A DNA stretch of 38,572 bases from a virus. Numbering within the stretch: position 1 is the first letter of the stretch; every line of letters starts with the position of its first letter. The position numbers and the translations under genes were made by a program. Location of the stretch: positions 1 to 38,572 of IMG/VR virus record IMGVR_UViG_3300027747_001139; one strand, given 5' to 3'. The notes beneath the pieces are model-generated. The model was not told the DNA's origin, made no database searches, and saw nothing but the letters and a program-made list of their open reading frames with translations. Below, one piece after another: positions 6,566-18,423 of the stretch.

Positions 6566-8998
6566 TTAAGTGCCGTATCGTTTTTGCATTTGATTCTGAA
6601 CACCCTGATTTGGATTACGCACTGGTGGCTTAATCGCATAGGTGCTAGAACTATTATTGTTGACGCTACTCATTGGTGCAATAACTGTACTTGACTGAGA
6701 AGATTTAGCATTCTTTGCCATCTCACTATCAGCAGACTGTGCAGCAACTTTGTTACCTGTCTGCGGTTCGCTTGATGATATTTTACCAGCAGAAACAGTT
6801 GTGCCACCCTGAACGACACTCATCTTTCCTCCAGCCATTGCTAGAGCAGTTGCTTTCATCCATGGAAATGCATTTACTGCTTCCATAGAGTTTTTATCAA
6901 CTTTGGCAAACTCTTTCATTGCGCTACCAACTGATGTCAATCCGCTGCCAGCTTTTTGAACTCCCTCACCGCTTTCACCGATCTTAATCAATTGATCAAC
7001 TGGAGAACCACCTGGAGTTATTGCTCCAAGGAATCCGCTTACAAGATTGCCAACTCCAGCCACTGCTTGCCCAGCCCCGAATGCTGCCATCGCAAGACCG
7101 ACCGCACCAATACCAGCAGCAACTTTAAGTAATTTTTCTCCATCGAGGTTTGATAATTTATCAAGACCCTCATTCATCTCAGAGAAACCTTTACCAACTG
7201 CCTGCATTGCTTCACCGACGATATAAAGTGCAGCACCCATTAATCCGAGTGCACCTGCGCCAGCAGCGATTAATGGTGCTGCTGTTCCTGCGATTGCACC
7301 AACCACCCCAAGAGCACCAATCGCAACAATACCTTTACCAACTGTTTCCCAGTCTAGCTCAGAGAAGGTTTTAAACGCAGCGCCGACTCCCCACAGAACT
7401 AATCCGAGGATACCAAGTGCAGCTGCACCCGCAATCATATTACCTTTTACTTTATCAATTGCAATTGCAGCAAGAACTACGCCACCAAGCGCAACTAATC
7501 CTTTACCAACATCGCCCCAAGAAACTTCAGCGAAGTTTTGGAATGCTTTACTAACTATGTAGAAAGAAGCACCTAGTGCAAGTAATGATTTCCAAGAGTC
7601 ATTCTCTTTAAGAAATTTGGTGCTAAGTACTAGAGCACCCATTGCAACTAATCCCTTACCAACATCGCCCCAAGAAACTTTTCCAAATTCTTGAAATGCT
7701 TTTGCTGTTATGTATAGTGCAGCTGATAGTGCCAAAAGAGTTTTAGCTGCTTTACCTAAACTTTCACCAATCTTAGATAAGAAACCTTTACCTCCACCAC
7801 CTCCATCTCCGCCACCTTCTTTTGGTGGCTGAGCATCATTTGGTTTTAGATTTGGTGACGTATTCTCTGCAATCTGTTTAAGCAACTCAGTTTGTTCATC
7901 CATCTTTTTCTGATTTTCCATATCAGCTTCAGTCATATCAGCTGAACCTAAACCAGACGATTTGGTGTCTTTTTTCTTTCCTGGGAAGTTGATTACATTT
8001 GAAGGCAATTCACTATCATCTGTATCTTCAGCTTTCTTAATTTTATTGGATCTTTTCTTTGTAGAGTTTGGATCATCAGCATCAGCTGCTTTAGTTATTT
8101 TTGGTTTATTTGGATCAGCTTTAATTTTAGAATCTGTTGATTCTACTTTAATCGGTTTTATGTCTGCAGATTTTTTCTTTGTGGAGTTAGCATCATCCTC
8201 ATCTGCAGCTTTAACTACTTTAGGTTTCTTAGGATCTGCTACCTTAACATCTTTCTTAGGATCTTCTTTCTTAATTCCACCAAATGACTCGCTGAAGCGT
8301 GTATCTGTTTTTGCTAGATCTTTCTCCAGCGATTCTTTCTTCTCAAAGAATCCGCCACGTTTGATCTGTCCTTCTTTGAATCCACGTTCTTGTAGCCCTT
8401 TAATGGACTGTTCATTCTTTACGATTTCTTTTTGCAGTTTTTCTGATTCATCGAATGCTTTGGCAAAACTCTTTTCGCTACCAAAGGTAGTTCCCTGTGT
8501 AGCTTTTCTATCAGCAATGTACTGCTGTTTTCTTTCTTCGTAATCTTTCTTTTCAGCTTCTGCTTTAAGACCTTTTTGTTCTCTACCAGCCAATGCTTTA
8601 TCTGCTAAGCCACCAAGATATGTTTGATCATGGCCACGTTTTAGAATGCTGGTTTTGTCCAAGAAGCCACGTAAGGTAAAGAAATCTTTCATACCTGTTG
8701 GTGGTGGAAGATCTCCTGGCTTACCCTTTGGTTGAAGACCCATTACCTTTTCGGTAACTGCTCCTGCCTTAAAGGTAGACTTGATTTCCTTGAGTGTCTT
8801 TGATAGTTCGCCTTTATCACCGAGACCATCGCCAATTGCTTTGTTGAGTTTTTGCAACTCATCAACCTGTTTCTTGGCGAAGTCTAAGTAAACAACATTA
8901 CTTTCTCTGGTTAGACTTTCTAGTTTAGACGTGGATGCTCCGCTACTGGCCATTACACCAGTACCTTGCACCTTCTGTTTGTCTAATACTTGTTTCAT
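6566..8998 (-). CDS. tail tape measure-like protein
   Basis: An 810-residue protein. The N-terminal half is charged and helical. The centre holds a duplicated low-complexity unit (KVADPKKPKVVKAADEDDAN... and KADPNKPKITKAADADDPN...). The C-terminal half has three related hydrophobic repeats (F.EVSWGDVGKGLVALG type) followed by Ala/Gly-rich helices, a layout typical of tape measure proteins that set tail length. It lies just after gp26 and the frameshift ORF, the usual tape-measure position. T4's equivalent is gp29 (590 aa), but I cannot align them by eye. Start at 8998 is preferred: its ATGA overlaps the upstream stop and AAAGGA is upstream. The ATG at 9034 lacks a ribosome site. Confidence 0.7.
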   Translation of the reverse strand: MKQVLDKQKVQGTGVMASSGASTSKLESLTRESNVVYLDFAKKQVDELQKLNKAIGDGLGDKGELSKTLKEIKSTFKAGAVTEKVMGLQPKGKPGDLPPPTGMKDFFTLRGFLDKTSILKRGHDQTYLGGLADKALAGREQKGLKAEAEKKDYEERKQQYIADRKATQGTTFGSEKSFAKAFDESEKLQKEIVKNEQSIKGLQERGFKEGQIKRGGFFEKKESLEKDLAKTDTRFSESFGGIKKEDPKKDVKVADPKKPKVVKAADEDDANSTKKKSADIKPIKVESTDSKIKADPNKPKITKAADADDPNSTKKRSNKIKKAEDTDDSELPSNVINFPGKKKDTKSSGLGSADMTEADMENQKKMDEQTELLKQIAENTSPNLKPNDAQPPKEGGGDGGGGGKGFLSKIGESLGKAAKTLLALSAALYITAKAFQEFGKVSWGDVGKGLVAMGALVLSTKFLKENDSWKSLLALGASFYIVSKAFQNFAEVSWGDVGKGLVALGGVVLAAIAIDKVKGNMIAGAAALGILGLVLWGVGAAFKTFSELDWETVGKGIVAIGALGVVGAIAGTAAPLIAAGAGALGLMGAALYIVGEAMQAVGKGFSEMNEGLDKLSNLDGEKLLKVAAGIGAVGLAMAAFGAGQAVAGVGNLVSGFLGAITPGGSPVDQLIKIGESGEGVQKAGSGLTSVGSAMKEFAKVDKNSMEAVNAFPWMKATALAMAGGKMSVVQGGTTVSAGKISSSEPQTGNKVAAQSADSEMAKNAKSSQSSTVIAPMSSVNNNSSSTYAIKPPVRNPNQGVQNQMQKRYGT

Positions 8999-9174
8999 TT
9001 GTTTTGCATCCTTTGTTTTTCTTCTTCTAACCATTGAATCAACATACTTACATATATCTCTCGTTCAAAAGGGAACATTTCCTCTAGTGCTTCCAAACCA
9101 TACTTATGATATTGCATAAGAGCAAAATTCGTTTTGTAGTAGTTATAGAGAGACTCATGACAAAGGCATATTAA
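8995..9174 (-). CDS. gp51-like ORF without own start, probable -1 frameshift extension of gp26
   Basis: A 59-codon open frame reads LICLCHESLY, NYYKTNFALMQYHKYG, LEALEEMFPFEREIYVSMLI, QWLEEEKQRM, then stop. The YYKTNFALMQYHKYG and FEREIYV pattern is what I recall from the small baseplate hub assembly protein following gp26 in T4-like phages. There is no ATG, GTG or TTG before the Met at position 20 (9117-9115), and that Met has no ribosome site. The frame is -1 relative to gp26 and joins it through a T TTT TTT heptamer. Its stop overlaps the tape measure start as ATGA. The likely product is a 298-residue gp26 fusion. Confidence 0.7.
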   Translation of the reverse strand, partial: LICLCHESLYNYYKTNFALMQYHKYGLEALEEMFPFEREIYVSMLIQWLEEEKQRMQNK

Positions 9175-9890
9175 AAAAAACTGCTGAGACCCTCAATCAC
9201 TTTACTGTGATGATGTTTACAAACTGGACAATCGTATTGAACTTCCTTGGACAGTTTGGGCATGGTTTCAAAGAACAGTTGAATCTTCTTAAACTGTTCT
9301 TGAGTTAAATTCTCTAAGAACTCTTTTAACTCTTCCTCAGTTTGATCCTTAGAATAGTGTAGTTCATCACCATCATAAATAAAGTCTACAGATTTTATCA
9401 CTATTTTAAATATTGATTCTGCATCAGTTTGATCTAAATTCTGTAGATCGTTTATAATGTTAAGTGATGGATATTTCATCACTACACCTACATCATCGAA
9501 CAATGCTATCTTCTTATTGTGATCGGCTGGAAAATTTACCTGTAGCTTGGACAGGTCAAAGGTCAACTTCACTCGTGCCTTTGTTTCCTCATCGGGACAA
9601 ACATCACAGGCAACTACAATCTCGACAATTTCGCCAACCGATTTCGATCTTAACTGGGCAAAAATGTACTCGATATCGAACAGTGCAAGAGAATCAACAT
9701 CCAGTTCTGTTTTGACACAGGACTTGATAATCTGTTTCAGTGTGTCCAACATTACTGCTGGTTCTTCACTTTGTTGGGCGATGAGAAGTGCCTTTTCTTC
9801 CTTGACTAAGAAAGCACGAAACTTAATTTCTTGTTTCGTTGATGGTACTGTTGAGGTATATACTGCTGCATTCTGAATAGGTAATGCCAT
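9171..9890 (-). CDS. 26: gp26-like baseplate hub subunit
   Basis: A 239-residue member of the T4 baseplate protein family (T4 gp26, 208 aa), which acts in hub assembly. The N-terminus MALPIQNAAVYTSTVPSTKQ with IKFRAFLVKEEKALLIA is the family hallmark. Two CxxC pairs, C95/C98 (CDVC) and C221/C224 (CPVC), suggest one zinc site. AAAGGAG lies within the end of gp16, 8 nt before the ATG. It ends SSFF at a T8 run that looks like a programmed slip site into the next ORF. In other tailed phages the gene pair upstream of the tape measure is the tail assembly chaperone, made by exactly such a shift. Confidence 0.85.
   Translation of the reverse strand: MALPIQNAAVYTSTVPSTKQEIKFRAFLVKEEKALLIAQQSEEPAVMLDTLKQIIKSCVKTELDVDSLALFDIEYIFAQLRSKSVGEIVEIVVACDVCPDEETKARVKLTFDLSKLQVNFPADHNKKIALFDDVGVVMKYPSLNIINDLQNLDQTDAESIFKIVIKSVDFIYDGDELHYSKDQTEEELKEFLENLTQEQFKKIQLFFETMPKLSKEVQYDCPVCKHHHSKVIEGLSSFF
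9174..9194 (-). promoter_or_regulatory. candidate -1 ribosomal frameshift signal
   Basis: On the minus strand, gp26 ends GGT CTC AGC AGT TTT TTT TAA. The heptamer T TTT TTT occupies 9180-9174 in the X XXY YYZ register. GAGGG (9194-9190) lies 9 nt before it, the position of a stimulatory internal Shine-Dalgarno element as in dnaX. I see no strong stem-loop downstream. Transcriptional slippage on the T8 run is an alternative route to the same fusion. Confidence 0.6.
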
Positions 9891-10321: not shown

Positions 10322-10732
10322 TTAGAGACTTGGTCTTGGACGTGGTCTCGGTGTATCGGTTGTGGTTGGTGTAGGATCTGCGCTTGGTGTTGGGATTGGG
10401 TCTGGCATTGGTAAGCTAGATGTTGCTGCCATTGCTGGTGGTGTATAAGGTACTGGTGTTGTATTGCTTGCTGCGCCAGCTACCTTTTCCTGAGTGCGAC
10501 CCCATGCTGCAATACCTAGTACTGCGCCCATGGCCAAGTGAAACAATCCAGCACCCTGAAGTGTAAGAGGATTCCACTGAGTCACTGGTTGTTTTAACAT
10601 TGCTTGCAGTAGTGCCCATGCAACAGGGAATAAAACCATGTCGCAAAAACAAACAACCATATACATCCAACCCATGGCTGGACGCCATTTCTTTTGCATC
10701 CAGTCTTCGTCTTTTTTAACTTCTTCTGTCAT
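10322..10732 (-). CDS. 3TM-type holin (GTA holin family-like)
   Basis: A 136-residue membrane protein. The motif KKWRPAMGWMYMVVCFCDMV followed by a hydrophobic helix, then QWNPLTLQGAGLFHLAMGAVLGIAAWGRT, matches the holin_3TM family known from gene transfer agents and environmental phages. The C-terminal 50 residues are Pro/Thr-rich with a PRPRPRPSL end. Holins permeabilise the inner membrane to free endolysin. AAGGAAG lies 6 nt before the ATG. It sits between gp54 and gp16, away from the hydrolase at 699. Confidence 0.75.
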   Translation of the reverse strand: MTEEVKKDEDWMQKKWRPAMGWMYMVVCFCDMVLFPVAWALLQAMLKQPVTQWNPLTLQGAGLFHLAMGAVLGIAAWGRTQEKVAGAASNTTPVPYTPPAMAATSSLPMPDPIPTPSADPTPTTTDTPRPRPRPSL

Positions 10733-14339: not shown

Positions 14340-15628
14340 TGGCGAAAAAAGATGGTTTAAGATTTGCTGGTGACGTAGACATTGAAAGAGTTGAAATAGT
14401 CTCTTCCAATGGTCGTGGTGTTGAAGTTACCAATATGATTGCAGAGATTCAGATATTCGAGGATATCTTTGCTCCCTGCGTTACAGGCACAGTTACAATA
14501 ACCGACAGTATTGACTTAGTAAATGTCTTTCCATTCGTTGGTGAAGAAAAGATCATACTTAAAATTAAGACGCCAGCAATTCCTGATAAGATGAAAGAAG
14601 CAAGAATTGATCAGCAATTCTATATCTACAAGATGTCTGATCGTAAGGTGTTGGGTGATAAGAACGTATTCTATATACTACACTTTTGTTCCTACGAATT
14701 GGTTTCTGACGCTAACTTAAAACTTTCTCGTTCGTTCGAAGGTAAGATCTCCGACCTTGCCAAGAAAATAATGAAGACTGAGATTGTTAAGTCCGATCTT
14801 CCAATGGACATCGAAGAAACCAAAAACTCTGTAAAGTATATTTCCAACTACTGGTCTCCGTATAGGAACATGACTTTTCTGGCTGAACGAGCAATCAGCA
14901 CCAGCAATGTTCCAAACTATGTGTTCTTTGAAAATCGCCATGGTCTAAACTTTGTTTCACTATCTGGTTTATTCACTAAGAAAGATAGAGAGCAATATAC
15001 ATACGACTCTTTCGAACGTCTACCAAAGAAACATGGTTCCATTCAAAATCCAGAATTATCATTTTCTAGGTTCTTAGACTATACCATTGAAACAGGTTTT
15101 GACTACATCGAGCGCATCAACAATGGTATGTTTGGTAGCAAGATGATCTCGCATGACATTCTAACTAAAAAGTACAGTACGCAGAATGTTAGTATGTTTG
15201 CTAACTTTGAGCAAGAAAAACATCTGAACAAGTATCCAGTCTCCACACAGGATGTGTTGGCACGTTATAATTCAAACATCTTTAATTACCCTAAGTACAA
15301 TAGCCATATGAATGGTTCGGGTGATGATGGTGTTCAAAATTGGTTACAACGCAGAGTATCACTAATGGCTCAGGCGCATGCGTACAGAATGACAGCTGAA
15401 GTTCCAGGTAGAACAGATATTACTGTGGGTGAGATTGTTACTGTTACAATTTACAAGTCTTCACAAACACTAAAAGAAAATGAAAACGATTCTTTGACTG
15501 ACAATATGTTTTCGGGTAGATACATTATCAGCGCATTGAACCACCGCATTACTCGTGAGAAGCATGAGATCCATATGGAACTATTGAAAGATTCGTTAAT
15601 CGTTGATCCTAAGACAGGCAAGAAATGA
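14339..15628 (+). CDS. 27: gp27-like baseplate hub subunit
   Basis: A 429-residue protein (T4 gp27 is 391), predicted to form the trimeric hub torus that carries the gp5 spike. The N-terminus GDVDIERVEIVSSNGRGVEV, EIQIFEDIFAPCVTGTVTIT, FPFVGEEKIILKIKTP is the tail-hub beta-barrel pattern. Later YRNMTFLAERAISTSN and AYRMTAEVPGRTDITVGEIV fit the second barrel. It starts in the gp53 stop codon, and the gp5 ATG overlaps its own stop by 4 nt. Confidence 0.85.
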   Translation: MAKKDGLRFAGDVDIERVEIVSSNGRGVEVTNMIAEIQIFEDIFAPCVTGTVTITDSIDLVNVFPFVGEEKIILKIKTPAIPDKMKEARIDQQFYIYKMSDRKVLGDKNVFYILHFCSYELVSDANLKLSRSFEGKISDLAKKIMKTEIVKSDLPMDIEETKNSVKYISNYWSPYRNMTFLAERAISTSNVPNYVFFENRHGLNFVSLSGLFTKKDREQYTYDSFERLPKKHGSIQNPELSFSRFLDYTIETGFDYIERINNGMFGSKMISHDILTKKYSTQNVSMFANFEQEKHLNKYPVSTQDVLARYNSNIFNYPKYNSHMNGSGDDGVQNWLQRRVSLMAQAHAYRMTAEVPGRTDITVGEIVTVTIYKSSQTLKENENDSLTDNMFSGRYIISALNHRITREKHEIHMELLKDSLIVDPKTGKK

Positions 15629-18423
15629 AGTTATATACTGGTGTAGTTGAAAATCGTAAAGATCCCTTAAAGCTGGGTCGTTGTCAGGTTCGTATTGTCG
15701 GGTTACACACCGAACAAAAAACAGTACTACCAACGGCAGATTTGCCATGGGCATTCCCAATGCAACCAGTTACCTCTGCTGCTATGAATGGTATTGGTCA
15801 TGCGCCAGTTGGTCCAGTAGAAGGTACATGGGTCATTATCTTCTTTAGAGATGCTGACGAACAACAGCCAATTATGATGGGTACAATCGGTGGTATCCCT
15901 CAGGCTGATTCCAAAAAGATAGATGAGTTTACAGACTTTGTTGAATTGTTTCCAAGTGCCATCGCACAAACTGGAACTAAGAATGGTGATGTAGCGCAAA
16001 ACGTAGTTTTAGATGGTTCTGGCAATCCAATAACAACTGGTTCTGGTGGTGTGTTAACCACTGGTAATGCCGATACACCAGCACAGGCAGCAAATACAGC
16101 CAATCAACAATCAGCTGAGGCAAAAGTTAATTCATCAATTCCTGGATCTCCACCATACGGTAAGAAAGAAGGTTCTTCAGTAAACATTCCTCAGACGTCT
16201 TACAAAGGTATTCAGGCACTGGGTAATGCCATGACATCGTTGGGTATTACAGCTAGGTATGCACGTGCAGCTATCCTTGGTATTGCCATGGGTGAATCAA
16301 AATGTGTGCCACAGAATGAAGCGTATAGCTACAACATATCCAGATTGAAGCAGGTGTATAGTTGGATTGATGATGAGAACGCAGCAAAGTATGCCAACTG
16401 GAAAGGTTCTCGTGAAGACTTTTTCCGTTACATCTACGGACCAACAACTCGTTCTGGCAAATCGTTGGGTCATACTGCTGCCGATGATGGTGCAAAGTAT
16501 TGGGGTCGTGGATACATTCAGCTAACTGGTAAAGGTAACTATACCAAGTACGCAAAACTATCTGGAGTGGATATTGTTAACTCTCCAGATCTTACCAACG
16601 ACTATGACAAAGGTGCGTTGGTTGCTGTGGCTTATTTTAAGGATCGTGTTAAGGTTGAACAAAACGATCCATCATATTTTGAAGCAGCATGTCGTGCTGT
16701 AGGTTATAACGTACCAGACATTAAAGCTGCAAAGAAAGCATACTACGAATACTTTCTTGGTGAAACTGCCACTGATGACAAGTCTGCAGTTCCAGGGGAA
16801 ACACCTGCCAACGTAGAAGTAAACGATCAGGGTATTCCACTAGATCGTGTTCAAAATATGGATACAGGATTCTCTGATCCAGATATGAAGTATCCACTAC
16901 GTTCTCATATCAACGAACCAGATACAAACCGATTAGCTCGTAGCAAAGTTTCAGGAACTGCCGTTGAAAAGAAAGATGCCACACGTGCCACTGGATTGCC
17001 AGTTGCCGATGATACTACATTTAGTCAACCAGCTGTTCCATTCAATGCCAAGTATCCATACAACCATGTGTTTGAATCTGAGTCTGGACACATTCAAGAG
17101 TTTGACGATACGCCAGACAACGAACGTATTCACCTGTATCACAAGACAGGCACATTCTATGAAGTTGATGTAAACGGCACTCAGGTTAACCGTATTACTG
17201 GTGATGGTTATACAATCATCGATAAGAACGGCTACATCTATATTAAAGGTGCATGTACCATTACAGCTGAAGGTGCTACAAACATCTTTGTAAATGCCGA
17301 TGCCAATATTAAAGTGGCTGGTATAACCCAAATCGATCTACTCAACGATGCCACAATTAATGTTGCAGGAGATTTAGATATGAATGTGGGTGGAGCATTT
17401 CAGGTCAAGTGCGACACCTTTACGCTAGAAACCACTGGCGACTCCGTAGACATTTCTTCAGTGGCTGGGGTAAACATTCAGGGTGAAGACGCTATCAATG
17501 TTAAGTCTGGTGCTGCAGTAAACGTACAGGGTGGTGGTGATATTAGCCTTAATGCTGGTGGCAATGTTGCCGCAGACGCAGGTGGTATTATCGATCTTGC
17601 CAATGGATCTGCAGCTGATGCTGACGATGCAGCTAAGACAAGTCTTGGTGAACCGCCAGCTGTTGGCAGTCCAGAGAACAACGTGTTTGCAACTCTTGAA
17701 GTTCCAACTCGTAATATGGAAGATGAAGCAGCATTCGAAACTCCAGAAGACAATGCATCAGCTGAAGGTCAGGCTGCAAACAAGAGAGAGATCGTGGGTG
17801 ATAAGAGTACTCCAGAAAACACAAATGCTACTGAGTCTGCCAATGCGCCAGCCAACAATATTACACCACAGGGAGCAAACTGCGATTTAATCTATACAAT
17901 GAATACTTTCCCAACATCGTTTAGATTGTCACCAAATGTTAATGTAGGAACTATGATTGCTGGTAGTCACATCTTACAAGGACAACAGGCTCTTGGTAAG
18001 ATGATGAGTATTCAAGAGATCGTTTGTAATATGAAAGGTTTGGCAGAAAACTGTATCGAACCAATTATGGCTCTTGCTGGTGGTAAGGGTGGTTTGATTA
18101 TTACATCAGGCTTTAGACAGAATGGTGTTGTGGCCAATTCATCTGCAACTTCACAGCATCCTGCTGGACAAGCATTCGACTTCCAGTTGGCTGGTAAGAT
18201 AAATGACTATCAGGCAACGTATGACTTTATTCAGAAAGTTGCCGCAAGTGTTCCGTACGATCAATTGATTCTGGAGTATAGAGATCCAGGGGTCAATGGT
18301 AATAACAGAAAAGTTCGTATCTGCTGGATTCACTGCTCGTTCAAGTACACTGGAAACCGTAAGATGGCATTCACTATGTTGAACGACAAGACCTATAAGA
18401 AAGATGGTTTCGCTTTACTATGA
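15625..18423 (+). CDS. 5: gp5-like spike with GH19-like lysozyme and M15-like peptidase domains
   Basis: A 932-residue protein (T4 gp5 is 575), the cell-puncturing spike. Domains: OB fold about 1-95 (LYTGVVENRKDPLKLGRCQV...MMGTIGGIP). GH19-type muramidase about 190-385, with AMGES (Glu224), QNEAYSYN (Glu232) and YWGRGYIQLTGKGNY. A gp5-type linker and beta-helix about 415-670, with GHIQEFDDTPDNERI and many V-N-hydrophobic repeats. An Ala/Asn linker. Then a C-terminal M15-like peptidase about 755-932, with TSGFR, SQHPAGQAFDFQ (His845, Asp852), DQLILEY and WIHCS (His903), the zinc-site pattern of D-Ala-D-Ala peptidases. T4 has a single lysozyme domain of a different family here. It overlaps gp27 by 4 nt. 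Confidence 0.88.
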   Translation: MKLYTGVVENRKDPLKLGRCQVRIVGLHTEQKTVLPTADLPWAFPMQPVTSAAMNGIGHAPVGPVEGTWVIIFFRDADEQQPIMMGTIGGIPQADSKKIDEFTDFVELFPSAIAQTGTKNGDVAQNVVLDGSGNPITTGSGGVLTTGNADTPAQAANTANQQSAEAKVNSSIPGSPPYGKKEGSSVNIPQTSYKGIQALGNAMTSLGITARYARAAILGIAMGESKCVPQNEAYSYNISRLKQVYSWIDDENAAKYANWKGSREDFFRYIYGPTTRSGKSLGHTAADDGAKYWGRGYIQLTGKGNYTKYAKLSGVDIVNSPDLTNDYDKGALVAVAYFKDRVKVEQNDPSYFEAACRAVGYNVPDIKAAKKAYYEYFLGETATDDKSAVPGETPANVEVNDQGIPLDRVQNMDTGFSDPDMKYPLRSHINEPDTNRLARSKVSGTAVEKKDATRATGLPVADDTTFSQPAVPFNAKYPYNHVFESESGHIQEFDDTPDNERIHLYHKTGTFYEVDVNGTQVNRITGDGYTIIDKNGYIYIKGACTITAEGATNIFVNADANIKVAGITQIDLLNDATINVAGDLDMNVGGAFQVKCDTFTLETTGDSVDISSVAGVNIQGEDAINVKSGAAVNVQGGGDISLNAGGNVAADAGGIIDLANGSAADADDAAKTSLGEPPAVGSPENNVFATLEVPTRNMEDEAAFETPEDNASAEGQAANKREIVGDKSTPENTNATESANAPANNITPQGANCDLIYTMNTFPTSFRLSPNVNVGTMIAGSHILQGQQALGKMMSIQEIVCNMKGLAENCIEPIMALAGGKGGLIITSGFRQNGVVANSSATSQHPAGQAFDFQLAGKINDYQATYDFIQKVAASVPYDQLILEYRDPGVNGNNRKVRICWIHCSFKYTGNRKMAFTMLNDKTYKKDGFALL

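Follow-up and report, generated by a model that had tools for sequence, protein, structure and literature searches.

How is a gp51-like reading frame translated when no start codon precedes it? The question is raised by a tail locus of an uncultured T4-like phage, represented by the 38,572-nt virus record IMGVR_UViG_3300027747_001139, the whole of which is here called the window. The gp26 homolog (9171..9890, minus strand) encodes a protein of 239 aa that matches Pfam PF12322 T4_baseplate (E=1.2e-59), phrog_150 (1.3e-64) and T4 gp26 (hhalign 4e-13), and it is the putative short form of a tail assembly chaperone (TAC-N). Its 3' end on the minus strand reads AGC AGT TTT TTT TAA. As the first-pass annotation had noted, the gene thus ends at a run of eight T (9180-9173), in which the heptamer T TTT TTT (9174..9180) is in the gp26 phase (X XXY YYZ) and in the register for a -1 slip. 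The Shine-Dalgarno (SD)-like GAGGG, likewise noted, is located at 9190..9194 on the same strand, 9 nt before the heptamer.

From position 9174, the -1 frame is open for 59 codons and stops at a TGA at 8997-8995. This ORF (8995..9174, minus strand) matches phrog_634 (E=1.6e-25), annotated as "baseplate hub assembly catalyst" (gp51), and it also matches residues 206-243 of T4 gp51 (BLASTP 7e-5, hhalign 5e-5). No ATG, GTG or TTG occurs in the frame until codon 20, an internal ATG within the conserved core NFALMQ. The earlier description of an open, conserved-looking and start-less frame therefore applies to a real gp51-like ORF. A -1 slip at the heptamer would join the two frames into a gp26-51 product of 298 aa (8995..9890, minus strand), predicted from the anatomy of the heptamer and the ORF, with the junction ...SSFF/LICLCHES..., in which the gp51-like part forms the C-terminal extension of the long form (TAC-NC). 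The predicted product is collinear with the in-frame gp51 of T4.

The overlapping gp26 and gp51 ORFs are directly followed by the tape measure gene (6566..8998, minus strand; phrog_4372, 2.6e-22). The ATGA overlap reported earlier is formed by a possible start of this gene, ATG at 8998-8996, and the TGA of the gp51 frame, while an earlier in-frame ATG at 9034 gives a longer tape measure ORF. Upstream lies the tail tube gene (phrog_45), separated from gp26 by a holin-like gene and a small-terminase gene. The small holin-like protein (GTA_holin_3TM) is encoded at 10322-10732 on the minus strand, and its gene is flanked by those for the tail tube and the small terminase. Elsewhere in the window, 15625-18423 on the plus strand encodes a gp5-like tail lysozyme of 932 aa, whose residues 197-341 resemble an endolysin or chitinase.

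Viral contigs were scanned with the gp26 protein of the window as query, with a gp26 profile and, separately, with a gp51 profile, and some contigs were recovered in more than one scan. Together with the window and two cyanophages, the scans yielded 187 loci; with an 88% identity cut-off for the nucleotides around the junction, 141 of these are distinct. All 141 contain an in-phase T TTT TTN at the end of gp26, and gp51 is always in the -1 frame, with an ORF length of 53-69 codons in the relatives. The 0-frame stop follows the heptamer after zero or one codon in 128 of the 141 loci and up to nine codons on in the rest. The heptamer and the -1 ORF stay together even where the stop has shifted this far; for example, the gp26 stop is located several codons downstream of the slip site in L087, L101, L102, L023 and L106, and the -1 ORF is unchanged. 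The first-pass annotation had proposed to check whether start-less gp51 ORFs in relatives go with T runs at the gp26 end; all 141 loci have the heptamer, and 69 of them have no start codon in the leader.

A further explanation of this arrangement is a sequencing error or a pseudogene, with gp26 and gp51 truly belonging to one frame. Homopolymer runs are error-prone. However, 141 distinct contigs share the arrangement, as do finished isolate genomes, and in all 80 loci from the gp51 scan the -1 frame upstream of the slip site runs into a stop within 25 codons, which also means that entry into the gp51 frame must occur near the slip site. The relatives rule out an error in the T8 run, which is itself present in independent contigs (L004-L010 and L028), and we assign this explanation a negligible probability.

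The heptamer encodes two phenylalanines, and a constraint on the protein was considered as the source of the T run. Among the 92 representatives of the first two scans, the terminal Phe-Phe carries the heptamer in 92 of 92 cases versus 8 of 96 internal Phe-Phe sites in the same genes. In this terminal Phe-Phe, TTT invariably encodes the first residue, and the codon that precedes the pair invariably has T in its third position. Under the codon usage of the genes themselves, the conservation corresponds to log10 P = -31.8, which is an overstatement because the loci are related and were treated as independent. In five loci (L166, L168, L197, L215 and L222), Phe-Phe is replaced by Phe-Leu, and the slip site is T TTT TTA instead of T TTT TTY. 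T TTT TTA is the heptamer known from HIV-1. Since these five loci keep a heptamer while changing a residue, it is the nucleotides rather than the residues that are under constraint. The internal Phe-Phe control and the Phe-Leu loci together rule out the protein constraint. The conservation of the heptamer, kept by all distinct relatives, is on these comparisons not due to chance.

The last base of the heptamer is C in 77, T in 59 and A in 5 of the 141 loci. This distribution bears on transcriptional slippage, by which the polymerase would slip on the T run and produce mRNAs of altered frame. The T8 run of the window would suit such a process, but in the 77 loci with a terminal C the run is interrupted after six T, which is short for polymerase slippage. 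Moreover, transcriptional slippage needs neither the codon phase of the heptamer nor the SD-like motif upstream of it, and we consider it very improbable.

The SD-like motif is itself a common feature of these loci. It is present 10-21 nt upstream in 85 of 92 loci, compared to 8.3% of control windows, and its 3' end is mostly located 8-10 nt before the heptamer, a distance comparable to that of GAGGG in the window. The Glu codon at this site is GAG in 50 and GAA in 18 cases, while the corresponding numbers for Glu before Gly elsewhere in gp26 are 19 and 45 (P = 7e-7). The arrangement resembles that of Escherichia coli dnaX. The first-pass annotation had suggested GAGGG as a stimulator; the motif stands as a conserved element, and the stimulatory role may be regarded as probable. 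No clear signal was obtained for a downstream stimulatory RNA structure, for which the mean z-score was -0.86 compared to -0.2 to -0.5 in controls, and any such signal is at most weak.

Translation of gp51 as a separate small protein, begun at or near the gp26 stop by termination and reinitiation, would require a TAATG-type overlap or a non-standard start such as ATA or ATT. Some relatives contain an ATG at codons 1-4, the annotations of P-SSM2 and S-SZBM1 take this form, and a product 26' is annotated in T4, where gene 26 has an internal non-AUG start. However, the 69 of 141 loci mentioned above have no ATG, GTG or TTG at all in the first 14 codons of the -1 frame, and 105 of 141 have no ATG. 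Codon 1 of the frame is variously ATA, GTA, CTA, ATT, TTA, GTT, CTT and others; a shared hidden near-cognate start at this position is rejected by the codon make-up, which is often GTA, CTA, TTA, GTT or CTT. The ATG codons that do exist mostly lack an SD sequence (1 of 18 has one). Reinitiation also leaves the invariant in-phase heptamer, and the SD-like motif 8-10 nt before it, unexplained, and we hold it to be unlikely, though less so than transcriptional slippage.

The pattern of substitutions points in the same direction. In the start-less loci, leader codons 1-13 have a pN/pS of 0.30 in the -1 frame versus 1.13 and 1.49 in the other two frames, and the value for 21 non-overlapping, independent leader pairs is 0.32. 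The core of the gp51-like ORF has a pN/pS of 0.18. Ribosomes therefore read the leader of the start-less loci in the gp51 frame and arrive there from upstream of any start codon. In the roughly one half of the relatives that have some possible start codon in the leader, a separate gp51 may possibly be made in addition.

These results strongly support the programmed -1 ribosomal frameshift proposed in the first-pass annotation, and with it the two products gp26 and gp26-51, on comparative sequence evidence. We put the probability that the locus encodes a tail assembly chaperone in these two forms, by means of the frameshift, at about 94%. Ribosomes translating gp26 would reach T TTT TTT with tRNA-Phe in both the P and A sites, and GAGGG, 9 nt upstream, would pair with the 16S rRNA and aid the slip. 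For the majority, translation would end at the TAA that comes next, with gp26 as the short product, while a minority would slip back one base and continue in the gp51 frame to yield the 298-residue fusion as the long product. The functions may be analogous to those of lambda G/GT: the gp26 part would coat the tape measure or polymerise on it, and the role of the gp51 extension would be to recruit other tail parts there. We infer that slipping takes place, how often it does so, that the SD-like motif stimulates it, and how the chaperone works.

The assignment to the tail chaperones also draws on a structural model of gp26, built from 54 sequences with a pLDDT of 86.5. The best matches of its N-domain among solved structures are the HK97 tail assembly chaperone 2ob9 (Z 7.7 over 84 residues) and 3fgx (Z 7.5), followed by matches at 5.1 and 4.3, all with Z below 8, and Foldseek alone gave an E-value of about 1. 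The structures 2ob9, 3klu and 3fgx are described as tail assembly chaperones (PMC9603447). The predicted fold match between the gp26 N-domain and the HK97 chaperone is moderate, and together with the comparative evidence it favours the earlier identification of gp26 and gp51 as a tail-chaperone pair. The gp51 extension is predicted to form a helical hairpin. A sequence search of solved structures with the gp26 and gp51 profiles gave no matches. PDB entry 5ir0, which is ORF19 from a PICI-like element of Vibrio cholerae, resembles the N-domain of gp26 and the tail chaperones (Z 5.1), and it is perhaps a satellite-encoded chaperone-like protein.

The heptamer and a gp51-like coding sequence in the -1 frame are also present in the named phages S-RSM4, ACG-2014e, Melnitz-3, DLP6, syn9, Cr30, phiM7, HTVC008M and P-SSM2, in the Vibrio phages VH7D (Schizotequatrovirus) and D527, and in OLIVR6, LPCS28, phiWae14, V45v66, S-CREM2 and Yut2. 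The predicted frameshift arrangement is thus not confined to the window phage; among the T4-like phages sampled from cyanobacteria, Pelagibacter, Methylophilales, Rhizobiales, Caulobacter and Vibrio, it is the rule. In GenBank, gp51 is given an internal start in S-RSM4, syn9, Melnitz-3 and HTVC008M and is missing in ACG-2014e. The records NC_013085, DQ149023, KC465899, MZ577098 and NC_026928 have gp51 from an internal start (about 45 codons) or unannotated, and the coding frame extends back to the slip site.

None of the eight split-gene phages examined, namely T4, KpV477, 50AhydR13PP, Tonic, Acj61, Serratia 4S, 05F and contig L137, has the perfect heptamer. Two separate genes are seen in the seven named phages, while the contig is T4-like, with 58% identity to T4 gp26. 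The T4 sequence at the corresponding site is GAG TTC TTT GAG. At the window locus, where gp51 is start-less, there is only one gp26-like gene, and the split arrangement of T4 was not encountered. A third situation, which weighs against the frameshift reading, is found in the Ackermannviridae phages EP75 (L121) and Ds9CZ (L127) and in Vibrio phage D506 (L123), which have the gp51-like ORF in the -1 frame and no T6 heptamer; gp26 3' ends in this group read GAA ATT TTC ATT TAA and TCA CTT TTC AAG TAA. The overlap is TAATG, with an ATG, in Ds9CZ and D506, and EP75 has ATT at that place. These three may use either reinitiation or a different slip site.

T4 had been contrasted with the window as a phage in which genes 26 and 51 are separate. 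There are indeed two genes, but the separation is not a simple one, since T4 gp51 itself consists of a gp26-like domain and an extension. Within its 249 aa, PF12322 covers residues 1-201 and phrog_150, the gp26 family, covers residues 3-248, including the profile region matched by the gp51 extension of the window. T4 gp51 also aligns with T4 gp26 (E=2e-6), and its C-terminus aligns with the -1 ORF of the window. T4 gp26 and gp51 are thus the short and long forms as paralogous genes. They belong to the same families as the window proteins (PF12322/phrog_150 and phrog_634) and form the same short/long pair; however, in T4 the pair comes from two genes, with gp51 as a full long form, whereas in the window it would come from one gene with a -1 slip.

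In a tree of 40 gp26-like domains, a branch (100/96) separates the T4-type gp26 and gp51 proteins from a set that holds the frameshift-type proteins and those of the Ackermannvirus type. The tree fits a single duplication in the T4 lineage, the direction of which we infer, because the root is the midpoint. In Slopekvirus 05F (L141, 1001-2295), a long gp51 and a short gp26 are adjacent on the same strand, while the T4 pair is divergent; the tandem pair is possibly a trace of the original tandem duplication. We somewhat favour a scenario in which the -1 frameshift is general, and probably ancestral, for the chaperone pair in T4-like phages outside the T4-type Straboviridae, and T4 acquired its two genes in a single event, in which gp26 was duplicated, the long form became fixed in frame and the slip site was lost.

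The window resembles lambda G/GT and P2 E/E' in the position of its predicted -1 slip, close to where the short form ends and immediately before the tape measure. The P2 slip site is T TTT TTG, and that of the window type is T TTT TTY/A; the link to the known chaperones is by the predicted fold of the gp26 N-domain only. The tail chaperone of Vandenendeviridae and Andersonviridae also has a T-rich slip site, GTTTTT, and a -1 frame upstream of the tape measure (PMC12846349). These are different myovirus families from that of the window phage, and they are likened to it by arrangement. The T4-type tail assembly chaperone genes (gp26/gp51) have, according to its title, been identified by Vladimirov, Gautam and Davidson (2022, Virology 566:9-15), which is cited in PMC10885494 and PMC12846349. 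As cited in the PRFect paper (PMC10885494), "some T4-like phages" do without frameshifting and instead use one short gene and one longer, fused gene, and as cited in the Adele paper (2025; PMC12846349), T4-like phages have poly-T slip signals. To judge from these citations, a gp26/gp51 frameshift in T4-like phages has already been reported, at least in part. A literature search that covered Vladimirov et al. (2022) through citing papers found no report of it in cyanophages. The extent of conservation, the test for selection on the leader, the Phe-Leu loci and the annotation errors were worked out here, possibly with some overlap with that study.

For a long time gp51 was known as the "hub assembly catalyst" of T4, essential but without an assigned function. 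The frameshifted loci identify the pair as the short and long forms of one chaperone, and they suggest that gene duplication can take the place of a recoding signal. In many genomes of marine T4-like phages, gp51 is truncated or unannotated, and the real product is likely to be the gp26-51 fusion. If the frameshift is indeed general and ancestral, the cyanophage "gp51" as annotated would not exist as a free protein.
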